NCBI GenBank assembly: GCA_013215805.1
Contig: JABSQM010000005.1
Coordinates: 124,001 to 188,000 of the forward strand
Origin: Piscirickettsiaceae bacterium
GTDB taxonomy: Bacteria > Pseudomonadota > Gammaproteobacteria > Nitrosococcales > Methylophagaceae
Length of the DNA stretch: 64,000 nt
Direction: 5' to 3'
Shown: positions 17,169 to 50,312 of the stretch, in pieces
How the letters are laid out: each line of letters begins with the position of its first letter
Position numbering within the stretch: position 1 is the first letter of the stretch
Notes under the pieces: model-generated
The model's database searches: none
Told to the model about the DNA's origin: nothing
Seen by the model: the letters and a program-made list of their open reading frames with translations, nothing else
Position numbers and translations under genes: made by a program

Positions 17169-17978
17169 TTATATAGTACTAAAATTAAATAATTTACCGA
17201 GCTGTACACCAGGATCTACAGCACATATAAATGCTTCTCCCACTAAAAAAGCATTTACTTTATTTTCTTTCATTAATGCTACGTCGGAGGAGGAATTAAT
17301 TCCACTTTCCGTAATTACCGTATAACTATTTGAAATACAATTTAATAGATTTAAAGTGGTGTCAAGATTTATTTCGAAAGTATCCAAATCACGATTATTG
17401 ATACCAATTAAGGGTAGGTTCAATAACAGAGTTCGTTCAAGTTCAGCTATGTTATGAACTTCTACTAGAACATCCATGCCAAGTTGCATGGCAAGATTGG
17501 AGAAATGACATAATTGCTCATCATGTAAAATAGAAGCAATTAATAAGATACAGTCGGCATCAATTGCTCGAGTCTCATACACTTGATAGGGATCAATAAT
17601 AAAATCCTTGCGAAGGATTGGCAAGGAAGAGACCCCACGAACCTCCTTTATATGAAGTTCATCTCCTTGGAAAAATTTGTTATCTGTTACAATTGATAAG
17701 CATGATGCTCCATATTCTTCATAGCTCTTAGCAATATCAGCAGGTACAAAATCTTTGCGTAATAAACCTTTACTGGGAGATGCTTTTTTTATTTCTGCGA
17801 TAACCGCTGAATCTCCAACATTAATTTTTGTCTCAATAGCATCAATAAATCCACGGACTGGACTTGCTACTTCAGCAAGCTCAATAATCTGTCGTAATGT
17901 TATATTTTTTCTACGTTCAGTTATTTCTTCAGCTTTATTTTTAATAATTATTTTTAATATATCGGTTTTTTTTACCAT
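17169..17978 (-). CDS. trpC: Indole-3-glycerol-phosphate synthase
   Basis: A 269-residue TIM barrel of normal single-function TrpC length. Motifs include VIAEIKKASPSKGLLRKDF near the N-terminus, LPILRKDFIIDPYQVYE, IGINNRDLDTFEI and VITESGINSSSDV. It converts CdRP to indole-3-glycerol phosphate in tryptophan synthesis. It lies 9 bp after trpD on the same strand. The gene looks intact although trpG next door is dead. Confidence 0.94.
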   Translation of the reverse strand: MVKKTDILKIIIKNKAEEITERRKNITLRQIIELAEVASPVRGFIDAIETKINVGDSAVIAEIKKASPSKGLLRKDFVPADIAKSYEEYGASCLSIVTDNKFFQGDELHIKEVRGVSSLPILRKDFIIDPYQVYETRAIDADCILLIASILHDEQLCHFSNLAMQLGMDVLVEVHNIAELERTLLLNLPLIGINNRDLDTFEINLDTTLNLLNCISNSYTVITESGINSSSDVALMKENKVNAFLVGEAFICAVDPGVQLGKLFNFSTI

Positions 17979-17987
17979 GTGATAGCC

Positions 17988-19007
17988 CTAGTTATCATCA
18001 TTGGTCTTTGCGATAAATGCATGTAATTTTCTTTGAGATGAGCCATTATCAATATGCTCTTTTGCTATTTCAATACCATCAGATAGTGAAATAGATAAAT
18101 TTGCAACATATATAGCGGCACCTGCATTTAGGCAAACTATATCACGGGCTGGACCCTTCTTACCAGCAAAAATGGACTTTATAATTGTTAAACTTTGCTT
18201 AGCATCTCTAACCACAAGTTGATTGATATTTTCTCGTTTAAAACCAAAATCTTCGGGTTCAATTGTATAAGTGGTAATTCTACCGTCATTAAGTTCTGCG
18301 ACATAGCTTTTAGAGCCAATGCTAATTTCATCGAGACCATCTGCAGCATGGACAACTAAAACATGTTGACTACTAAGTTCTTTAAGTACTTGAGCCATGG
18401 GCATCACCCATTTTTTATCAAATACACCAAGGAGTTGATGCTTAACTCTAGCTGGATTAGTTAGTGGACCCAGTAGATTAAATATAGTTCGTACGGCCAT
18501 TTCACGGCGAGGTTTTATAGTATGCTTCATGCCGATATGATATTTCTGAGCAAACATGAATCCAATACCAACACTTTCAATGCAACTTTTTACTTGTTGT
18601 GGTGTAATGTCTAAATTAACACCTGCTGCTTCTAGAACATCAGCACTGCCTGAACCACTACTGATCGATCGGTTACCGTGTTTAGCTACAGTTGCTCCGG
18701 CAGCGGCAACTACAAAAGCGCTAGCTGTTGAAACATTAAAGATACTAGAAAAATCTCCACCTGTACCACAGGTATCAACAATATGATCACCTGTAATATT
18801 TACTGGAACATCAAGATCGCGCATTACTTTTGCAGCGGCGGTAAATTCAGCTACAGTTTCACCTTTCATATGTAGGCCTACCAAAAATCCACCTATTTGT
18901 GCTGAAGTGGCATTGCCCATCATAATAGCTTTCATCACCTCCTGCATCTCATTACATGTTAGATCCTTTCCTCGCATAACGTTTTTTATCGCTGCTTGCA
19001 AATTCAT
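17988..19007 (-). CDS. trpD: Anthranilate phosphoribosyltransferase
   Basis: A 339-residue protein of normal length. It has the PRPP/anthranilate motifs DTCGTGGDFSSIFNVSTAS and AKHGNRSISSGSGSADVLE; the latter has Gly where many relatives have Lys or Arg before SGSAD. It transfers phosphoribose to anthranilate. It overlaps neither neighbour: trpC follows after 9 bp and the trpG pseudogene precedes it. The frame is fully open, so it is probably still expressed. Confidence 0.93.
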   Translation of the reverse strand: MNLQAAIKNVMRGKDLTCNEMQEVMKAIMMGNATSAQIGGFLVGLHMKGETVAEFTAAAKVMRDLDVPVNITGDHIVDTCGTGGDFSSIFNVSTASAFVVAAAGATVAKHGNRSISSGSGSADVLEAAGVNLDITPQQVKSCIESVGIGFMFAQKYHIGMKHTIKPRREMAVRTIFNLLGPLTNPARVKHQLLGVFDKKWVMPMAQVLKELSSQHVLVVHAADGLDEISIGSKSYVAELNDGRITTYTIEPEDFGFKRENINQLVVRDAKQSLTIIKSIFAGKKGPARDIVCLNAGAAIYVANLSISLSDGIEIAKEHIDNGSSQRKLHAFIAKTNDDN

Positions 19008-19017
19008 GGTTATCCGT

Positions 19018-19575
19018 TAAATTATCAGCGGTCAATAAAATTTGTAAGTAATTTATGACCCTGCTTAGTTAAAATGTATTCAGGGTGAAATTGTTCACCC
19101 TAAAATTGTTATACCTGATACTCATAATCTCATCTGGTTGGACATCATATTTTGTATCAAGGCCATAATCTCAAAATAATTAGGCATGGTAATTTTATTC
19201 ATGACTAGTAAATAATGTCGTATTGCTTTGATTGGTCTTATTAAACCTTTGAAGAGGTTTTTATTATCTAAGTATATAAGAGTCCTATGTATAATCCCTC
19301 TCGAATTATAAATGTTGCTACCAGAATCATGATCTATATATTAATGTCCAAGTCAAGCGCCAAGAATAGGTATTTTTCTTAAAAATATCTAATGAATCCA
19401 AATACATACAGGTTCTATTCGGTGTACATGGACCTGGCGAGATGATAATTTTTATGAAGCCTATCTCGCAGTGTAATTCCATTATTGTAATGTACCTGCA
19501 CATTGGAACTAATATTTCCAGAATATCGTTTAGATTGTATATAAATGAGCTGTGATTGTCTAGCATTAACATCAT
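19018..19575 (-). pseudogene. trpG: trpG pseudogene (anthranilate synthase glutamine amidotransferase)
   Basis: The N-terminal 70 codons still read as TrpG/PabA (LMLDNHSSFIYNLNDIL, then IIISPGPCTPNR). After a frameshift near 19380 the nucleophile elbow reads G-A-stop-L-G-H-stop where GVCLGHQ is expected: the catalytic Cys codon is TGA and the Gln codon is TAA. The C-terminus is visible in another frame just before trpD (QFHPEYILTKQGHKLLTNF). It is clearly inactive. An 82-codon open frame at 19327-19575 is only its N-terminal fragment. Confidence 0.9.
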
Positions 19576-19580
19576 TTAAT

Positions 19581-20075
19581 AGTTCCCACTATCCTGAATA
19601 TTGTTTTGCTTAGTGTCGATGATCAGATGGGTTAACTTTAATTGTAAGCAACATTTGCCATAATATAAGTCATAACGATATATTGCCAAATGATATCATT
19701 AATGAGAGATCGTCCATTTACAGTTAATAATTGTCATCTTGTGTCAATGATTAGTAGCTTAGAGTATTCAATACTAACTAATATATTTTTATAATTAATA
19801 TTTTCTAAATTAATTATAATTTTTACAAACTTAGTATCATATTTATTGATAAGATTGATCTTATAATACTTTGTAATATACATGTCTGTTATTTTTGAGA
19901 TCAATTATAAGGGGGGGTATATGCTTTCCCATACGGATCGAATCAAGGTAACGTAAGTATTATATACTGATTTTCATCAAGATAATCCTAAATAAAAAAT
20001 GGAACATCACAAAATCCAAAAAGCAATTATTGATAAAAATAAATAACTACTATTATAATTTATGGAGTAACTATC
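19581..20075. other. Gap at the expected position of trpE; possible trpE remnant
   Basis: About 495 bp, without an open frame, upstream of trpG and divergent from rpe. On the minus strand a short tail near 19590-19680 can be read as a very weak match to the end of TrpE, but it is too eroded to be sure. A run of seven G lies near 19912. The promoter of rpe must lie in the right part, with GGAG before its ATG. Confidence 0.3.
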
Positions 20076-20768
20076 ATGCCTGAATTTAAAATTGCACCTT
20101 CGATTCTTTCTGCTGATTTTGCCCGCTTGGGCGAAGAGGTCGACAACGTATTGGCTTCTGGCGCTGATATAGTTCACTTTGATGTTATGGACAATCACTA
20201 TGTGCCAAACCTAACGATTGGTCCATTGGTTTGCAATGCGTTGCGTAGGCACGGAATTACTCATGAGATCGATGTACATTTAATGGTTAAACCCGTTGAT
20301 CGTATTATTCCCGATTTTTCTAAAGCTGGTGCCAGCTTTATTGCTTTCCACCCAGAAGCTTCTGAACATATCGATCGCAGTTTACAATTAATTAAAGATG
20401 AAGGTTGTAAAACATGCTTGGTATTTAACCCCGCAACTCCATTATCATTAGCTGAACATATATTAGATAAAATTGATCGTATTTTATTAATGTCTGTTAA
20501 CCCTGGTTTTAGCAATCAATCATTTATTCCTCACACTTTAAAGAAATTATGCGAAGCTCGAAAAATGATTGATGCAAGTGGCTTTAACATTGATCTTGAA
20601 ATTGATGGTGGTGTAAATATTAAAAATATTCGTAAAATTGCCGAAGCTGGAGCGCGTACATTTGTTGCAGGCTCTGCTATTTTTGGTGCTTCTGATGCTA
20701 ACAATCCATATTATTATGAAACTGTTATCGCTGCTTTACGTGCTGAACTAGCACAATCTAAGATCTAG
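20076..20768 (+). CDS. rpe: Ribulose-phosphate 3-epimerase
   Basis: A 230-residue TIM barrel of normal length. Motifs: [33 protein letters not shown] with metal-binding His/Asp, VDVHLMVKP-like [15 protein letters not shown], and EIDGGVN near the end. It interconverts ribulose-5-P and xylulose-5-P. GGAG stands 8-11 bases before the ATG. gph follows after 2 bp, the common rpe-gph pair; in relatives trpE follows on the same strand, whereas here the trp genes are divergent. Confidence 0.96.
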
Positions 20769-20770
20769 AT

Positions 20771-21427
20771 ATGAAATTAGATAACATAAAAATGGTATTG
20801 ATCGATTTGGACGGTACAATGGTAAATAGTGTTCCGGACCTGGCATGGTGCATTGATGAAATGATGAAAGAGCTTGACATGCCAGCTCATGGTGAAGAAA
20901 AAGTCAAAAACTGGGTAGGCAATGGCGTACCCAGACTAATCAAGCGTGCTTTAATAGGTCAATTGTATGGCGAGCCAGATGATCCCATATTTGCTAAAGC
21001 TTATCCAATATTTATGAATTTATATGCTGATAATCACAGTAAACGCAGTCTATTATATCCTCATATTATGGAGGGTTTACAGTGGTTAAGAGACCGGAAT
21101 ATGCACATTGGTTGCGTGACCAATAAGGATGAACAATTTACCTTACCAATCTTAAAAAATTTGAATATTTATAATTATTTCCAAATTATTATCAGCGGTG
21201 ATACATTACCTTCAAGGAAGCCAAATCCGGCACCATTATTACATGGCGCTGCATTTTTCGGCATTGCACCAAAAAATGCGATGATGATTGGGGATTCTAT
21301 AAGTGATATCAAAGCCTCTCGTGCCGCAGGGTTTGATATTATATGTCTTAGCTATGGTTACAATCATGGCATCGATATTAGTACCGCAAATCCAGATGCT
21401 GTTATAAATTCATTTGCAGAATTTTAA
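20771..21427 (+). CDS. gph: Phosphoglycolate phosphatase
   Basis: A 218-residue HAD-superfamily phosphatase with motif I LIDLDGTMVNS (nucleophile Asp12), a helical cap, motif II TNKD, and motif III-IV KPNPAPLLHGAA and IGDSISDIKASRAAGF. It removes 2-phosphoglycolate made during DNA repair or by Rubisco oxygenation. It is coupled to rpe with a 2-bp gap. The assignment as Gph, rather than another HAD phosphatase, rests mainly on the rpe linkage and length. Confidence 0.9.
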   Translation: MKLDNIKMVLIDLDGTMVNSVPDLAWCIDEMMKELDMPAHGEEKVKNWVGNGVPRLIKRALIGQLYGEPDDPIFAKAYPIFMNLYADNHSKRSLLYPHIMEGLQWLRDRNMHIGCVTNKDEQFTLPILKNLNIYNYFQIIISGDTLPSRKPNPAPLLHGAAFFGIAPKNAMMIGDSISDIKASRAAGFDIICLSYGYNHGIDISTANPDAVINSFAEF

Positions 21428-48471: not shown

Positions 48472-49820
48472 CTATGATCATCAGTTGATTATTGTTAATA
48501 CCAGCGATAGTATTGTTATGTCTTATCTTTTGCATATCTTTATCTTCAAGATTTCAATTTATACTTACCTCATGTTAATTCCTTAACAAGTAATATCATT
48601 ATCTTCATAATCTTTAATATCGGTTTATTTAAAATTTTATATATTTAAATGTTTTTAAAATGTAGTTTTTAAAGATTTTTAATATCTATAAAGCATTTGC
48701 CGGTTATTAAATTGAATCTATAATAAATATTTAGATAAAAATACCAACAATATCCAACAATTCTACAATTAATTGATCTTATATTTGATTAAATTGTTCT
48801 TCCAATTTTTAATAGAAATCATAGTTATACTATCATTTTACACTGAAGGTATTGTCTATTAAGATTATCCATTTTCATTTTAAGTTATATATGCATGTAT
48901 ATTTATCGTCAAAAATTATTTTGGATGAATATTAACGCCACAGATCATCATATTATAAATAATGGTTACTCGTATATTTTATCCAACAATTTTACTTGAA
49001 AATCATCAATAAATATAGTTTTATAGATTAAAAATGGTCAATGATTTAAGCCTAAGACTAAAATTAAACAATTTTACTAAATTACCCCCTTTCAATAAGT
49101 TTGTGTTATTTCATGTAATATGTAGTTTACATCCTCATAATAGCCTGGCCTATATATCAATCTATAATCTTCAAGAAATTTATGAATCGATAGTTGACAT
49201 TATTGACATAATAACATTACAAGCTTAAATATTATATAATACATCCTTGTGTCAGACTTCATTTAGAATGTGCAATTAGGTATCCGTGTGCAGGTCATTC
49301 ACCAGTATGCACAATGCCACGACCTGATTCTAGTACATAAATATTCAATTATATACATGATACGAATTGCCATGATAGTGCCCATGCCACACTACTATGG
49401 CCATATAGTAACCTCATCAACTTCGCCAAATCAAACAATTCATGGCACTATTTTATATTAAAGAACAAGTTCCACATCCGGTTGGTCAAATGTTGATTGA
49501 TATTAAATTCTTCCACATGACTTTGCCTGCAGATAATACATCATCAAATAAGTTACAGTTGGTATGAATTTTAATTTCCAGATATCTATTTATAAGCACA
49601 CTCAATGAATTTAGATGAGGGTAACCAATTAAATATATACTATGCACAACCTGAATAATTTTGCGCTTGTTATAAATAATATATGTATATAACAGTCATC
49701 TTTAACGTTATAATTTCATATAAAGATCAATTGCATTTCATCCATCAAATAGGATCTTTCATTTTTATAAATAGGCATGTAAAATTCAATATTATATTTC
49801 AAAAAAGTATCAAATGTTTT
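48472..49820. other. Gene desert of about 1.35 kb with unidentified coding-like scraps
   Basis: No complete gene. Two small plus-strand frames (49034-49228, 49270-49461) and nearby scraps such as CAIRYPCAGHSPVCTMP at about 49270 look slightly more coding-like than their surroundings, but shift frame and match nothing recognised. Confidence 0.45.
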
Positions 49821-50312
49821 ATGCTACTTAATATGTTTGTGTTGACACAAAATCTATTAAAAATAATTTTACCATTTATCGAACGGTTTCAGTACAAATC
49901 AGTATTAGCCGTTGGAAACATGGCGATATCGATATGCCGAGAACTACGAAATGATAACACCATATCTCTAACGGATCCGTTTGATCTTCGACAGTTGGAT
50001 AAGTTGGGATCAGTAGACATAGCCCTGGTTAGTGATGTTACGGAAATTTTGAATAAACCACAAGCCATGGAATGGCTGGGAGTATTACGAAATTATCATA
50101 CCCAACACATCATGGTTATTTCTGACAAAGTTAACGCAAATGATAAAGATTGGCAATTAACAGATTATCTGTCGCTTGGACTCAAATATCACGGTGATTA
50201 TTCTGATAGATCAGTCTTCAGCTATACAATAGAAGACTATCATTTCAAACGTGATTGGCTGAATAGTAAATTTTGGGCTAATCCAGAAATATACGATAAA
50301 TATCGTTGGTAA
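49821..50312 (+). CDS. DUF6231-type protein, function unknown
   Basis: The open frame begins at 49683, but family-like sequence starts only near residue 50, so the ATG at 49821 (or 49833) is the likely start, giving about 160 residues. The core looks like a degenerate Rossmann/methyltransferase-like fold: SVLAVGNMAISICREL, DPFDLRQLDKLGSVDIALVS, and the C-terminal LNSKFWANPEIYDKYRW, the signature of this gammaproteobacterial family. It is intact although it stands between two deserts. Function unknown. Confidence 0.7.
   Translation: MLLNMFVLTQNLLKIILPFIERFQYKSVLAVGNMAISICRELRNDNTISLTDPFDLRQLDKLGSVDIALVSDVTEILNKPQAMEWLGVLRNYHTQHIMVISDKVNANDKDWQLTDYLSLGLKYHGDYSDRSVFSYTIEDYHFKRDWLNSKFWANPEIYDKYRW

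Follow-up and report, generated by a model that had tools for sequence, protein, structure and literature searches.

In the genome studied here, a xenologous trpE-trpG pair on contig C6 has probably displaced the native anthranilate synthase: the sequence indicates that the native trpE has been lost and that the native trpG is dead, and the tryptophan pathway looks complete. The common expectation for a genome that shrinks is that biosynthetic steps either disappear permanently or pass to partner organisms. In this one, the first step of tryptophan synthesis has apparently been taken over by a foreign enzyme whose TrpE belongs to a distant lineage, with the downstream native genes intact. The stretch with which the analysis began (the window, all 64,000 nucleotides of it) would contain what is left of a reduced proteobacterium's own trp cluster. 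The source genome comprises 1,149,260 bases in 27 contigs, with an estimated completeness of 100% and an estimated contamination of 0.04. The GC content of the stretches examined was 28-38%, compared with 41-43% for those of three relatives (G001 and G002, of the same genus, and G005). The 1.15-Mb size, low GC and at least three pseudogenes would point to a host-restricted life. GTDB places the family, Methylophagaceae, within Nitrosococcales, and one member with a 2.17 Mb genome is a symbiont of Idas mussels, according to passages of PMC10199937.

A frameshift-aware alignment of TrpG from G001 and G005 with window:18990-19700(-) delimited the trpG remnant as listed in Table 1, and the alignment with G029 TrpG extends it to 19589. 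The G001 protein is identical to the remnant at 91 of 180 aligned residues, with 6 frameshifts, 6 codon-size gaps and two stops; for G005 TrpG the identity is 90/180 with the same lesion counts, and G029 TrpG gave slightly more lesions (7 frameshifts and 9 codon-size gaps). The G001 alignment scored 352, whereas eight single-base shuffles of the region scored -27 to -69. Coverage of the remnant by tblastn required three reading frames, and PF00117 detected it as two stop-containing pieces. The original prediction, made from the letters of the window, was that a TGA stop had replaced the catalytic cysteine of trpG. Indeed, the alignment with all three relatives' TrpG places a TGA (19353-19355, minus strand) exactly on that codon, and a second in-frame stop, TAA, follows four codons later at 19341-19343. 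That account was thus accurate on the stops, but it had omitted the frameshifts and codon-size gaps. Judged by its sequence, the window trpG is an old pseudogene, long dead, with neither the open frame nor the nucleophile Cys of a functional native TrpG. With a minimum of eight lesions in the gene, the death of trpG cannot be attributed to the loss of the Cys codon in particular.

The exact coincidence of TGA with the catalytic cysteine codon could be taken to mean that TGA is decoded as selenocysteine or tryptophan and that trpG is functional, a reading to which we give practically no weight. The stop codons of 24 conserved window genes are TAA in 15 cases, TAG in 7 and TGA in 2 (cysE and lepB), and these genes use 79 TGG codons. 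Moreover, the same trpG also carries the TAA and about six frameshifts, so it would be dead under any code. Reassignment of TGA, the caveat attached to the original prediction, therefore fails, and selenocysteine at the catalytic site is ruled out by the same frameshifts, TAA and TGA terminators.

The two genes downstream, trpD and trpC, had been described as seemingly intact, and both are open, full length and above their model cut-offs (Table 1). Window trpD is 77% identical to G001 trpD. In comparison with G001, dN was 0.14 and dS 2.15 for trpD (differences at codon positions 1, 2 and 3 of 0.18, 0.09 and 0.51), and dN was 0.18 and dS 2.46 for trpC (0.25, 0.11 and 0.49); dS is saturated in both, so that the ratios are rough and only their direction is safe. 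With differences mostly at third positions, both genes look constrained, which answers the question of selection that had been raised for them. The many lesions in trpG, and the absence of a recognisable native trpE, contradict the idea that loss of the pathway has only just begun.

The neighbourhood of these genes differs from that in relatives. A single strand of G036 carries rpe-gph-trpE-trpG-trpD-trpC in this order, and G005 has the same order without a gph match (rpe-trpE-trpG-trpD-trpC, one strand). In G001, rpe-gph-trpE lies ~12 kb from trpG-trpD-trpC on one contig and one strand. In the window, 500 bp at 25% GC lie between the rpe-gph block and the trpG remnant. Four native TrpE proteins used as tblastn queries against the window revealed no native trpE remnant, the only matches (E 0.13 and 0.27) falling inside trpC and alaS, and native trpE was not found in the genome with the PF00425 profile at E values up to 10 together with the tblastn of the window. 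A scan of the spacer yielded 16 promoter-like sites versus 9.3 expected, five imperfect inverted repeats and no direct repeats, and one terminator-like site inside the trpG remnant. Elsewhere in the window, no ORF of 100 aa is listed for window:29911-34562 and a single one (49683-50312) for window:48472-53795; both stretches possibly hold decayed genes.

Table 1. Features of the native trp region (window coordinates) and of the trpE-trpG pair on contig C6
Feature	Coordinates	Strand	Remarks
trpC, indole-3-glycerol phosphate synthase, intact native	17169..17978	-	NF001373 361.9 bits (cut-off 317)
trpD, anthranilate phosphoribosyltransferase, intact native	17988..19007	-	TIGR01245 408.6 bits (cut-off 199.05)
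trpG pseudogene	19028..19575	-	alignment, tblastn, PF00117 fragments
Spacer, trpG remnant to rpe	19576..20075		AT-rich (25% GC); no recognisable trpE remnant
rpe	20076..20768	+	points away from trpGDC here
gph, phosphoglycolate phosphatase	20771..21427	+	same displaced block as rpe
Foreign trpE-trpG pair	C6:341670-343711		trpE before trpG, four-base overlap; 359-kb contig, same assembly
Intact trpG of the pair	C6:341670-342299		218 aa, GVCLGMQ

A search of the entire assembly for trpE, trpG and pabA with PF00117 and PF00425, as suggested at the outset, found an intact, overlapping trpE-trpG pair on C6. PF00117 detected five amidotransferases free of internal stops, C6 TrpG among them, in addition to the two pieces of dead trpG. 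With PF00425 (E up to 10), the sole intact chorismate-binding enzyme of the genome was that of C6, and there was one fragment, on C12. The latter was considered as native trpE and rejected; it is 46.9% identical to G001 PabB versus 31% to G001 TrpE, which identifies it as native pabB. It had been supposed that another amidotransferase feeds the pathway. This holds insofar as an extra trpG exists, accompanied by its own TrpE; this extra gene is neither a pabA of native origin nor the native trpG copied to a plasmid. The remaining genes of the pathway, including the trpA and trpB that were to be checked, are in place, since trpF, trpB, trpA and folC are all intact in one stretch of contig C23.

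C6 TrpE (467 aa) contains the domains PF04715 (Anth_synt_I_N; 62.0 bits, cut-off 23) and PF00425 (Chorismate_bind; 252.8 bits, cut-off 27). Its best model is the archaeal TrpE model TIGR01820, at 414.8 bits and thus under the cut-off of 512.05, followed by trpE_most at 383.9 bits, under 517.7, so that no TrpE equivalog cut-off is reached. PabB models gave 237-264 bits, none over cut-off among the best 25 of 26 models, and we rejected a PabB identity on the ground that these scores are far below those of the TrpE models. The protein retains 72 of 73 columns that are invariant in 31 other TrpE in hand-chosen rows (the exception is A372S), and it contains the stretch FIFESLGEES, whose ES we take to be that of the tryptophan-binding motif. 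C6 TrpG scores 194.1 bits with TIGR00566, over the cut-off of 121.05, and retains 41 of 42 columns invariant in 21 other TrpG, D10G being the exception. Cys94, His195 and Glu197, presumably the catalytic Cys-His-Glu triad, are kept.

The folate genes contain two further remnants. One is a native pabB remnant lacking ~210 middle residues, beside aroK and aroB (G000:C12:155006-155287; L052:5915-6580); in G001 and G002 the corresponding neighbourhood contains an intact PabB-like gene. The other, between fabF and mltG, is a relic of pabC interrupted by six stops (G000:C23:192318-192701; L183:1534-1869); at that place G005 has an intact pabC (TIGR03461, 305.9 bits). A 300-aa aminotransferase on C23 was also considered as PabC and rejected: it resembles D-amino-acid transaminases (266.2 and 262.8 bits, both below cut-off), and with TIGR03461 it scores only 95.2. 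Both folP and folC are intact although native pabB and pabC are dead, and the cell therefore probably takes up pABA from its surroundings or obtains it along a route that our searches did not reveal. The neighbour names aroK, aroB, fabF, mltG, truA, accD, ychF and argJ are our presumptive assignments, made on reading the sequences.

The need for some source of pABA lends itself to a different interpretation, namely that the pathway is decaying, with trpD and trpC as relics that will follow trpG, and that the C6 pair serves p-aminobenzoate or a secondary metabolite. Consistent with this, TrpD had no match in the congener G002 (94% complete), the single TrpE match there is PabB-like, and its amidotransferase matches all resemble carA or guaA; G002 is possibly a tryptophan auxotroph. 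However, trpD, trpC, trpF, trpB and trpA are all intact in the genome studied here, and the models closest to the C6 enzyme are those of TrpE rather than PabB. In addition, with pabC dead, aminodeoxychorismate would have no known lyase here, so that synthesis of pABA in the usual way is unlikely to be the reason why the C6 pair persists. Taken together, we regard the decay of the pathway as improbable and favor displacement of the native enzyme by the C6 pair.

The distribution of C6 TrpE sets it apart from the native proteins. A search of 58 genomes (the source and 57 relatives) returned matches in 57; in 56 of the 57 relatives the identity was 28-37% where most of the protein was covered, with shorter C-terminal matches of up to 46%. 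At E 1e-78, the source genome was the sole match among 63 genomes of the order. In a sample of the class, 5 of 369 genomes matched, the source included, and in a sample of the phylum 20 of 398 did: the source, nine genomes of the class at 58-64% identity and a further ten, at 36-39%, that all belong to a single different family. Merging the two samples, which have two genomes in common, gives 11 carriers in the class besides the source, ten with a TrpE at 58-64% identity and one at 44%, spread over eight families (f8, f33, f146, f150, f172, f188, f189 and f198). The archaeal-like protein is the only strong TrpE match in all 11; ten of them also have weaker matches at 27-34%, which we take to be PabB and its kin, and G184 has none. 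Since no other strong TrpE match occurs there, the archaeal-like TrpE is probably the anthranilate synthase of its carriers. A TrpR-like gene lies directly upstream of the archaeal-like trpE-trpG in ten of the 11 (L149, L150, L151, L157-L163), and PF01371 was found in both of the two that were tested. Near the C6 pair, we detected no trpR at E 1e-6 in the surrounding 33.7 kb (L038, L039), the best hit in the 4.8 kb upstream having an E value of 0.45.

Phylogenetic analyses, for which rows were chosen by hand from more than 100 matches, agreed with this distribution. A quick tree of 61 TrpE and PabB-like rows placed C6 TrpE within a 12-row clade with the 11 carriers (support 99), and a careful tree of 34 rows recovered the same clade at 100/100. 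The family's and the order's native TrpE fall instead into the clade typical of proteobacteria. A Methanosphaera sequence adjoins the carrier clade at 100/96, with a long-branch warning there for the Methanosphaera row and one carrier row; C6 TrpE itself has a fairly long end branch (0.67) and was flagged for unusual letter make-up. Forcing it together with five native TrpE of the family was rejected (p-AU 5.1e-5), as was forcing it with ten native TrpE, five of the family, four of the order and one of the class (p-AU 1.6e-5). The TrpG tree of 47 rows is poorly resolved, with 4 of 44 inner branches starred, and its grouping of C6 TrpG with the carriers (SH-aLRT 84) is in weak agreement. On these trees, the C6 trpEG is xenologous and not native.

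As to the donor, a first scan of the contig collection with a single protein query gave no match, and in a collection scan that reached archaea, Methanosphaera, at 43%, was top among the matches listed. A direct archaeal donor is not supported, in that the nearest kin found are proteobacterial, archaea being sparsely sampled; for the same reason, the donor is more likely to have been a bacterium. Among plasmids, 657 records match the foreign TrpE, all at less than 60% identity, and the 40 listed range from 28.6 to 37.0%. Two genes that flank argJ near the end of C6, at most some 11 kb from the foreign trpEG, are possible mobile-element remains: an IstB/DnaC-like ATPase (PF01695; L039:5602-6426) and a protein of 371 aa that matched no Pfam family (L039:8346-9461).

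The GC content of the C6 genes (0.335 and 0.344) and their GC3 (0.266) match those of the genome's other genes, unlike the carrier loci at 36-59% GC. Residence in this genome has therefore probably lasted long enough for the pair to acquire its composition. This bears on whether the trpG lesions might be sequencing errors or the C6 pair contamination. In an assembly of 27 contigs, a chimeric C6 is possible in principle. Nevertheless, about six frameshifts and two stops at ~50% identity are no pattern of error, trpD and trpC on the flank are clean, and the pair sits inside a 359-kb contig of matching composition in a genome with a very low contamination estimate. Thus, an assembly or binning error seems very unlikely.

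Even less likely, in our estimation, is that a host or partner supplies anthranilate and that the genome's own TrpEG goes unused. Divisions of this kind have been described in insect symbionts, in the portions of PMC8692619 and PMC11427311 consulted, and anthranilate from a partner was among the original suggestions. In those cases, however, the symbiont with trpD to trpA lacks trpEG, whereas here an intact and conserved pair is present in the same genome and no partner need be invoked.

With displacement as the preferred explanation, the step from chorismate to anthranilate would now most likely be carried out by the horizontally acquired C6 trpE-trpG. The foreign TrpEG would convert chorismate and glutamine to anthranilate, which would pass to native TrpD, TrpC, TrpF and TrpBA; we infer that the pair is expressed and works as an anthranilate synthase. 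The foreign genes would either have been gained first, with the native ones decaying afterward, or have rescued an earlier loss. Three genomes of the genus differ, one having native genes in a split row, one showing no trpE, trpG or trpD and one having the foreign pair, and so the two orders can be tested by sampling the genus. It is conceivable, though doubtful, that the foreign TrpEG was kept for its freedom from TrpR control and perhaps an altered feedback, such that a host-restricted cell overproduces tryptophan for its host and the native pair became dispensable.

Xenologous gene displacement is a known kind of event, of which we regard the present one, in a shrunken genome, as an unusual instance. 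Foreign replacement of trp genes as such is reportedly known already, trp operon displacement having been treated by Xie et al. in 2004. Among published accounts of trp operon evolution, the parts of PMC2395257 and PMC1854888 available to us present no such foreign-trpEG case, and the former notes that the Sargasso Sea metagenome lacked trpR homologs. Judged by titles and the opening of abstracts, the open-licence literature yielded no matching case of foreign or displaced anthranilate synthase genes or of trpR with trpE and trpG. The archaeal-type TrpE (NCBIfam TIGR01820) with TrpG provides the best-scoring model and, in Methanosphaera, a tree neighbor for C6 TrpE, but the score is below the model's cut-off and the nearest kin found are proteobacterial. 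The trpR-trpE-trpG of the 11 carriers comprises the same trpE-trpG pair, with 58-64% TrpE identity in ten of them, but the C6 pair has no trpR in the 33.7 kb around it. Buchnera, another reduced genome, likewise keeps its anthranilate synthase genes, trpEG, away from the other genes of the pathway, on a plasmid. The Buchnera genes are native ones that were relocated, whereas the C6 genes are foreign and lie on a large contig; among the matches listed, the identity of Buchnera TrpE to C6 TrpE is 31-34%. The gammaproteobacterial trpB of Candidatus Tremblaya phenacola PPER is also a tryptophan gene of foreign origin in a reduced symbiont, but it concerns another gene and step and was detected by PCR, as stated in the part of PMC4144094 consulted. 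Finally, Vallotia with Profftia (PMC8692619) and Carsonella with its secondary symbionts (PMC11427311) show, in the sections available, the pattern originally suspected here, trpEG lost and the later trp genes kept; there a partner supplies the anthranilate, whereas here the same genome has the replacement.
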